From the NCBI RefSeq assembly GCF_900013425.1, contig NZ_FBXK01000005.1, forward strand, positions 806,001 to 870,000: 64,000 nt of DNA. Direction: 5' to 3'. Positions 58,786 to 59,426 of the stretch are shown here, one piece after another (within the stretch, counting starts at the first letter, position 1; each line of letters starts with the position of its first letter). The notes beneath the pieces are model-generated. The model saw only the letters and a program-made list of their open reading frames with translations, did not search any database and was not told the DNA's origin. This DNA is from Sphingobium sp. Z007 (GTDB lineage: Bacteria; Pseudomonadota; Alphaproteobacteria; Sphingomonadales; Sphingomonadaceae). The position numbers were made by a program, and so were the translations under genes.

Positions 58786-58874
58786 CGTCATCCCCGCGCA
58801 GGCGAGGATTCATCTCGCGTGTTTGCACCGTGTCGCAGGTTAGGAGATAGGTTCCCGCCTGCGCGGGAATGACG
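58786..58874. repeat. REP-like inverted pair 2
   Basis: Arm 1 (58786-58816) begins CGTCATCCCCGCGCAGGCGA; arm 2 (58844-58874), inverted, reads CGTCATTCCCGCGCAGGCGG on the minus strand. The arms end in ATCTC and are separated by 27 bp. Same CGTCAT-hairpin plan as pair 1, different stem. Confidence 0.82.
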
Positions 58875-58940
58875 AAAGGGGTGGGTTGCAGACCGTCTGG
58901 CTTGCGGGCGCAATGCCGAAGAGCGGACTTAAAATCCACC

Positions 58941-59313
58941 GTCACCCCAGCGAAGGCTGGGGTCTCAGGCGGCGACGCGCTACGGTAGGACATGGCGCGA
59001 GGCGGCTACACCTACATCATGACCAACAAACCGAGGGGCGTTCTCTATATCGGCGTCACAGCCGACATCGCTGCGCGGGCCGAACAACATCGAAACGGGA
59101 CCGGCTCGGCCTTTTGCAAGAGATACGGGCGGACGCGCGTTGTTCTGGTCGAACCACATGATGACATCACGCTCGCCATCGCTCGCGAAAAGGCCCTCAA
59201 AGCCTGGAAGCGCGAATGGAAAGTCCGGCTTGTGGAAGAAGGCAATCCAGATTGGCGGGATATGTCAGACGTTATCCTCTGACGCCTGAGACCCCAGCCT
59301 TCGCTGGGGTGAC
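58941..59313. repeat. Perfect 31-bp inverted repeat framing the GIY-YIG gene
   Basis: The left arm at 58941-58971 (GTCACCCCAGCGAAGGCTGG then GGTCTCAGGCG) and the right arm at 59283-59313 are exact reverse complements over 31 bp. Each arm contains a CCCCAGC-GAAG-GCTGGGG hairpin. The left arm ends 20 bp before the GIY-YIG start codon; the right arm begins at the base after its stop codon. The unit of 373 bp therefore looks like a minimal mobile cassette: two inverted REP-like arms and one nuclease gene. Confidence 0.9.
58992..59282 (+). CDS. Small GIY-YIG endonuclease-like protein
   Basis: The 96-residue single-domain protein shows GYTYIMTNKPRGVLYIGVTADIAAR, the GIY and YIG strands, followed by a basic QHRNGTGSAFCKRYGRTRVVLVE segment and IAREKALKAWKREWKVRLVEEGNPDW, the conserved Glu/Lys helix of the stand-alone YhbQ/UPF0213-like group. 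It has no added DNA-binding domain. It is framed exactly by a perfect 31-bp inverted repeat and lies among three more REP-like units within 600 bp, suggesting that its nuclease may act on, or be spread with, these palindromes. That link is inference. Confidence 0.9.
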   Translation: MARGGYTYIMTNKPRGVLYIGVTADIAARAEQHRNGTGSAFCKRYGRTRVVLVEPHDDITLAIAREKALKAWKREWKVRLVEEGNPDWRDMSDVIL

Positions 59314-59394
59314 GATAAGAGGAGTGGCAGCCTCCAAATAATGGCACCCGCATATTTGAAGACCAAGAATGATCGTTCTCAGTCACTCCTCTCC

Positions 59395-59426
59395 CGTCAT
59401 GCCTGGCTTCACCCGGCATCCCGCTG
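59395..59426. repeat. Single REP-like arm
   Basis: CGTCATGCCTGGCTTCACCC followed by GGCATCCCGCTG has the CGTCAT-hairpin-ATCCCGCT plan of pair 1 without an inverted partner nearby. Confidence 0.65.

Follow-up and report, generated by a model that had tools for sequence, protein, structure and literature searches.

The hairpins analyzed here belong to a type of bacterial repeat surveyed in 2013 by Di Nocera et al. as CGTC-tagged REPs. Available excerpts of that survey describe an unpaired CGTC head, a stem of 8–9 bp, a loop of 4–5 nt and a short tail that is mostly CCA, in elements that form repeated families, mostly of head-to-head dimers, lie mainly downstream of coding regions and are known from five phyla, mostly from alphaproteobacteria (PMC3733652). 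Family 1, with an 8-bp stem and a 4-nt loop, includes dRS3 of Neisseria and, in the excerpted text, a dedicated transposase for CGTC REPs is apparently absent (PMC3733652). According to an excerpt of a second source, the GIY-YIG nuclease superfamily includes homing enzymes and is also represented in Penelope-like retroelements (PMC1564403).

REPtrons, in which RAYT genes accompany GTAG REPs and REPINs, provide a further point of reference. As at the locus described below, a small nuclease gene lies between cognate hairpins, REP pairs without a gene occur, one genome can hold several families with separate arms, and each hairpin has a tetranucleotide foot. The enzyme is here GIY-YIG rather than HUH/tyrosine and the foot is CGTC rather than GTAG; because the defining enzyme and tag differ, we do not class the unit as a REPtron, REPtron-like as it is in its working. 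IS200/IS605 elements and classical insertion sequences are short autonomous units with deletion derivatives, IS200/IS605 elements having subterminal hairpins as well; all these traits recur here. In contrast to both, the present unit is without an HUH or DDE enzyme; its outer tips, GGGTGG and TGGTCG, are no inverted copies of each other. UPF0213 GIY-YIG proteins and SLX1 likewise consist of a single small GIY-YIG domain, but the gene type studied here is arm-flanked, multi-copy and found at varying positions. A GIY-YIG nuclease also resides inside selfish DNA in the case of homing endonucleases and Penelope-like retroelements, as excerpted (PMC1564403); the present unit has the nuclease as its one gene, bears hairpin arms and gave no match to a group I intron.

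The window, a stretch of 64,000 nucleotides from Sphingobium sp. Z007, contains a GIY-YIG gene between matching inverted arms (Table 1). Each arm comprises 32 nt, the two are 100% complementary and 311 nt lie between them. An arm consists of CGTC, the 8-bp stem ACCCCAGC/GCTGGGGT and a GAAG loop, which is the form given for family 1 of the CGTC REPs in the excerpted survey; the tail after the arms is CTCA in the window genome and CCA or CCG at many other loci. Read from the left, the unit runs from the end GGGTGG through left arm, gene and right arm to the end TGATCG. We consider it probable that the GIY-YIG nuclease is the dedicated partner of a CGTC REP type and that the gene and its two arms form one copy of a mobile element of ~0.5 kb. 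Whereas the 2013 survey in its excerpts associates no transposase gene with CGTC REPs (PMC3733652), a partner gene is proposed here. Among the matches listed from the open-licence literature, no title or abstract linked GIY-YIG proteins to REPs; an earlier publication is possible.

Table 1 Coordinates of the GIY-YIG unit and of neighbouring palindromes in the window.
Feature	Position	Strand	Remarks
Predicted mobile unit, whole	58879..59375	+	~497 bp; edges 61 nt outside both arms
Left outer flank, 61 nt	58879..58939	+	Common to GIY-YIG copies (alignments)
Left arm, CGTC-REP hairpin	58940..58971	+	8-bp stem, GAAG loop, CGTC head outward
GIY-YIG nuclease gene, 96 aa	58992..59282	+	Pfam PF01541, E 2.6e-12
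Right arm	59283..59314	-	Exact reverse complement of left arm
Right outer flank, 61 nt	59315..59375	+	Common to GIY-YIG copies (alignments)
Other-type REP pair, CCCGCGCAGGCGGG class	58786..58874		4 bp before the unit's left end
Solitary CGTC hairpin	59395..59419	+	5-nt loop, one mismatch; read by eye

A preliminary description of this DNA had placed the gene inside a perfect inverted repeat, and the repeat stands, but its extent, given as 31 bp at 58941–59313, was one base short at each outer end. It had rightly let the right arm begin just past the stop codon (the ORF ends at 59282) and each arm fold as a hairpin. The inverted pair it reported at 58786–58874 is likewise present, with arms at 58786–58816 and 58844–58874 that are 81% complementary and of a different CGTC-REP type; its single arm at 59395–59426 is, by eye, a CGTC hairpin at 59395–59419. 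What it overlooked is the CGTC-REP identity of the arms, the ~61 nt beyond them, the seven copies with their short relatives and the type-specific arms of paralogues.

Two other readings of the locus were rejected. No Y1_Tnp domain (PF01797) was matched in the window genome at E 0.001, which speaks against a RAYT. Rfam gave no match at gathering score and no group I intron among ten matches up to E 10; an RNA or intron reading was dropped. Only one match fell below E 0.01, that of the neighbouring palindrome to a microRNA model, with 27.6 bits where 75 are required.

The GIY-YIG gene occurs in seven copies of 83–100% identity in the 4.94-Mb genome, all on one contig (the search gave eight rows, as a frameshifted copy was matched in two pieces). 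Five copies are intact, one contains a stop and one is frameshifted, and both arms are present at all seven. A genome-wide search allowing up to three mismatches gave 58 hits for the 23-mer arm core and none for its reversed-pattern control; the window arms are therefore not a product of chance. Like the described CGTC REPs, the arms are thus repeated and largely paired: 57 of the cores are on contig C5 and a single one is on C1; on C5, 23 convergent pairs and 11 lone cores were counted, and cores less than 1 kb apart occur in no arrangement other than these pairs. The pairs comprise the seven GIY-YIG units, with arm starts 346 or 347 bp apart and a span of 375–376 bp from arm to arm, and 16 short gene-less pairs with start-to-start distances of 84 bp (11 pairs), 52 bp (two) and 82, 83 and 151 bp (one each). 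C5, which holds 57 of the 58 arm copies and all seven genes, measures 3.25 Mb of the 4.94 Mb.

Because homology among copies continues past the arms to defined edges, we place the window unit at approximately 58879–59375. In the window genome the left edge reads GGGTGG, with GGATGG and GAGTGG as variants, and the right edge reads TGGTCG in most GIY-YIG copies, otherwise TGATCG or TGGTCC, each 60–62 nt from the arm; both edges were recognized in five of the seven GIY-YIG units and the right one alone in two. Aligning 18 GIY-YIG copies of the genus gave an information content that increases around −62 and drops around +62. Short units in the window genome have at least one such edge at 60–62 nt in six of nine cases examined and none in three. 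Judged by eye, GIY-YIG units and short units carry different, class-specific 61-nt outer flanks. An internal sequence common to both kinds of unit was considered and dropped, as the likeness seen by eye was inconsistent in orientation. In a different clade, represented by five copies in genome G067, the common outer flanks measure about 28 nt and 50 nt; the length to the edge therefore depends on the clade. Four loci in other species retain both arms around an internally deleted gene. Two copies in the window genome, L003 and L006, have the same left flank over the 300 bp compared and the same 5′ gene half, while the 3′ part of L006 resembles L005, which suggests recombination between copies. 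In draft genome G152, contigs C17, C28 and C39 end near GIY-YIG copies, and equal scores of the copies on C17, C39 and C76 hint at recent amplification of near-identical units.

To compare loci, we called hairpins with an outward CGTC head, a stem of at least 7 bp with at most one mismatch and a loop of 3–7 nt, within 160 bp of the gene. The exact head and near-perfect stem demanded by the caller mean that decayed arms are scored as absent, and pairing, being built into it, is not independent evidence. A first set (copies from the window genome, the best matches of each genome and the 80 best named relatives) contained 116 GIY-YIG loci, 67 with hairpins on both sides and 31 on one side; the corresponding numbers were 1 and 31 for 1707 windows taken from these loci with a shift of 700 bp or more. 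The second set consisted of 60 further paralogues from 19 multi-copy genomes, chosen among the matches listed, and gave 33 and 11, compared to 1 and 27 in 481 shifted windows. After removal of two duplicates from the 176 loci, 174 distinct loci remained, including six at contig ends, of which 98 had outward CGTC hairpins on both sides, 42 on one and 34 on none. Loops at other loci were mostly 4 or 5 nt; calls of 3, 6 or 7 nt were few. As shifted windows are positioned without regard to gene borders, here and in the outside-family set below, we added the flanks of 252 neighbouring ORFs of at least 150 aa from the same loci as a control: none had hairpins on both sides and 26 had one on one side. 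The enrichment of arms beside GIY-YIG genes that the preliminary description had proposed as a check was thus found, at 98 of 174 loci versus 0 of 252 ORFs and 2 of 2188 shifted windows. Together with the co-occurrence of repeats and gene reported below, it supports the earlier idea of a REPIN-like family tied to stand-alone GIY-YIG proteins.

Paralogues within one genome can carry different arms; in G067 these are of CCAGC-GAAG, CCCGGG-CTTGA, CTGAA-CTTGT and CCCGC-GCAG types. The two arms of a locus agreed in core and loop length at 85 of the 98 distinct two-armed loci (87 of 100 before duplicate removal), compared to a mean of 27.8 and a maximum of 38 after shuffling. We related arm type to a protein tree of 155 dereplicated rows and 96 columns, in which 72 of 152 inner branches were open. 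With ‘none’ counted as one label, arm labels changed 43 times on this tree versus 92 times when shuffled, and none of 200 shuffles was as low. Protein and arm distances correlated over all pairs (r 0.52; permutation maximum 0.13) and, in a Mantel test within genomes, over 108 pairs (r 0.83; the permutations averaged 0.45, and one of 999 was as high). Arm type therefore follows the protein tree across clades and within genomes, and the GIY-YIG gene is flanked by cognate, family-specific REPs in the manner of RAYT/REPtron systems.

Gene and repeats also co-occur. Among 119 genomes of the Sphingomonadaceae, the gene was found at E ≤1e-8 in 84, with one to ten copies each, and was not detected in 35. 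Two REP types taken together reached at least five copies in 48 of the 84 genomes with the gene versus 3 of the 35 without (Fisher 4.8e-7), with reversed-pattern controls at 0 throughout, and a third type did so in 38 of 84 versus 5 of 35 (Fisher 0.0015). The abundance of the first two REP types scaled with gene count (Spearman 0.58). In genomes with one gene type only, considering those whose loci were read, the matching REP was commoner, in 12 genomes for one type (p 0.0009) and 7 for the other (p 0.027). The preliminary description had asked whether gene-less genomes lack the repeats: usually they do, as the counts of three and five repeat-rich genomes among 35 indicate, but the link is not absolute. 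Despite giving no gene match, G045, G066 and G083 contain 16–29 REPs that belong to the first two types; the third type has 10–19 copies in G013, G028, G045, G059 and G083, likewise with no gene match. When 15 of the 35 genomes without the gene were searched with a profile, weak matches appeared in G045 and G083 (E ~1e-11 to 1e-12) and in G005, and none in the other 12, including G066, G013, G028 and G059. The window genome itself has nine third-type REPs, while all seven of its genes carry the other arm type. Repeats without a matching gene may be orphans of lost genes, or a partner may not always be needed.

Presence and absence of the gene between relatives was seen at two sites. One is an fnrL/response-regulator locus on Sphingobium plasmids: seven records align over its full length, gene included (arms were read in three, one with a TGTC head), and TYG74, TYG64, TYG72 and TYG65 are without the gene. 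In TYG74 and TYG64, a single CGTC palindrome is found at the site; a deletion between 8-nt direct repeats that lie within the arms could account for it, as could a solitary REP present beforehand. With such a palindrome in two of the four gene-less relatives, deletion and insertion fit equally well. The other site is in Azospirillum lipoferum 4B, where complete REP pairs flank the gene in its place between sufB and sufC; three inspected relatives do not have it there. The uvrC region, proposed earlier for such a comparison, gave a clean joint in none of 11 relatives compared; it carries other sequence. For five other insertions in the window genome, a search with joined flanks aligned element-free sites at three, where the intergenic DNA was too diverged for a joint, and no target duplication or exact joint was readable at the element-free Sphingobium sites inspected.

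Other REPs adjoin some insertions. Across 34 units from the window genome and relatives, another CGTC hairpin abuts five left ends, including that of the window copy, and no right end, compared to 3 of 1047 random positions in the same loci placed regardless of gene borders. One site is occupied by a GIY-YIG unit in G148 and by a short unit in the window genome (G000), with different outer flanks and the same older palindrome adjoining both, which suggests independent insertion at a preferred place. Loci L031 and L245 have in their left flanks, next to the insertion in each case, a large palindrome that starts CGTCATTGCGAGCGAAGCGAAGCAATCCA and may represent another CGTC-REP family.

How such a unit might move can be outlined from these patterns. 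The only protein of the element would be a small SLX1/UPF0213-like GIY-YIG nuclease and its hairpins would be CGTC-REPs. The nuclease would recognize its cognate CGTC-footed hairpin, either as an extruded cruciform or as a single strand at replication forks, and cut near the hairpin foot by structure-selective cleavage. From this cut, an edge-to-edge copy of the unit would be released or templated, short units that lack the gene but have the same edges could be moved in trans, and copies would land at new sites, sometimes directly beside other REPs. Hairpin recognition, foot cleavage, action in trans and the insertion chemistry are steps that we infer. The GIY-YIG enzyme probably spreads the CGTC repeat family whose spreading enzyme was reported missing.

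The main rival holds that another agent spreads the CGTC REPs and that the GIY-YIG gene is a homing-type passenger, invading REP pairs through hairpin cutting and recombination. It would explain the matched arms; GIY-YIG units resemble REP pairs with a gene between them, and this rival also draws on the homing enzymes of the superfamily (excerpted in PMC1564403) and on the repeats in genomes without a detected gene. The site with a GIY-YIG unit in G148 and a short unit in G000, and the solitary palindrome at the fnrL site in two relatives, are likewise in keeping with such a passenger. However, the class-specific outer flanks seen by eye argue that the gene was not simply dropped into short units, which disfavours strict homing into existing ones; repeat counts track gene presence, and the genome with the window yielded no Y1 transposase. 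We therefore judge a passenger origin unlikely.

The protein itself bears both on the dedicated-partner reading and on a possible host role. Residues Y8, Y19, G21, R29, E66 and N85 are invariant in 20 aligned relatives; we take them to be catalytic-type residues, in line with their roles in the GIY-YIG family. A structure model of the window protein (pLDDT 90.7) was nearest to 1zg2 (UPF0213 BH0048; probability 1.00, with an E of only 0.01), followed by Slx1-Slx4 structures (probability 0.93, E only 0.07). Going by the titles of those structure entries, Slx1 acts on branched DNA, and an Slx1-like action on branched DNA would fit recognition of hairpins or cruciforms. With a GIY-YIG fold and conserved Tyr, Arg, Glu and Asn, the protein has the features expected of a GIY-YIG nuclease; it may be catalytically active and serve in transposition. 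The gene is under purifying selection: pairwise dN/dS is 0.12–0.22 among the five intact copies of the window genome and has a median of 0.10 over 103 pairs of Sphingobium copies. Selection of this kind, and a fold like those of UPF0213, SLX1 and the UvrC nuclease domain, would also suit a host nuclease that repairs or controls hairpins and so limits or domesticates REPs, its adjacency to them being regulatory. Such a role is hard to reconcile with one to ten copies in some genomes and none detected in 35 of 119, with two broken copies among seven and with arms that are matched on both sides and type-specific, and we consider it very improbable. Coincidence, in which REPs act as terminators at gene ends and short intergenic genes are often framed, can practically be dismissed: REPs do lie mainly downstream of coding regions in the excerpted survey (PMC3733652) and one-sided hairpins do accompany neighbouring ORFs, but two-sided framing of those ORFs was never seen, the 23 close arm pairs of the window genome are all either GIY-YIG units or short pairs (52–151 bp start-to-start), and the identity of left and right arms and their covariation with the protein would be left unexplained.

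A dedicated, clade-specific GIY-YIG partner would name an enzyme for CGTC REPs, predict the hairpin of each enzyme and provide many natural pairs for studying specificity. A bolder version of the reading, for which we see about even chances, is a new class of bacterial DNA transposon in which a single-domain GIY-YIG protein is the CGTC-REP transposase, reading hairpin and CGTC foot, and in which different clades spread separate families, possibly including dRS3 and the rhizobial CGTC repeats. In that reading, the transposase would be unrelated to HUH, DDE, serine and tyrosine transposases. If transposition holds true, bacterial transposition would gain an enzyme class, and RAYT-REP systems a non-homologous counterpart.

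The pairing of gene and hairpins is real and general, extending beyond the family. At E ≤1e-10, GIY-YIG relatives were present in 120 of 397 Pseudomonadota genomes. Outside-family loci, chosen among the matches listed and scored with a 200-bp limit, comprised 31 from outside the Alphaproteobacteria (hairpins on both sides at 11, on one side at 11) and 13 from other alphaproteobacteria (both at 4, one at 6). Altogether, 15 of these 44 loci had hairpins on both sides, 17 on one and 12 on none, compared to 2 with both and 52 with one among 642 shifted windows. A plasmid collection contained 33 records with a match, ten of which were read with a 260-bp limit and CGTC, TGTC, CCTC or CATC heads accepted. 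Two-sided hairpins were found in seven, three of which represent the same Sphingobium locus. The caller detected no hairpins within 260 bp in the Photobacterium, Planktothrix and Spirosoma records; TGTC-headed palindromes are visible nearby by eye in the latter two. Phage records gave no match at E 1e-6, and a phage origin was dropped. In Neisseria gonorrhoeae, a GIY-YIG homologue is situated among ten dRS3-like palindromes within 3267 bp, a neighbourhood that is suggestive only, because dRS3-like elements of Neisseria occur mostly in clusters according to the excerpted survey (PMC3733652). The plasmid-collection record in question, at 2.17 Mb, looks like a chromosome labelled as plasmid. In Sinorhizobium meliloti Ak57 (CP090106.1), a second arm pair lies beside a full arm-flanked GIY-YIG gene and encloses only a 3′ remnant of such a gene, a visible step from an autonomous unit to a gene-less repeat.
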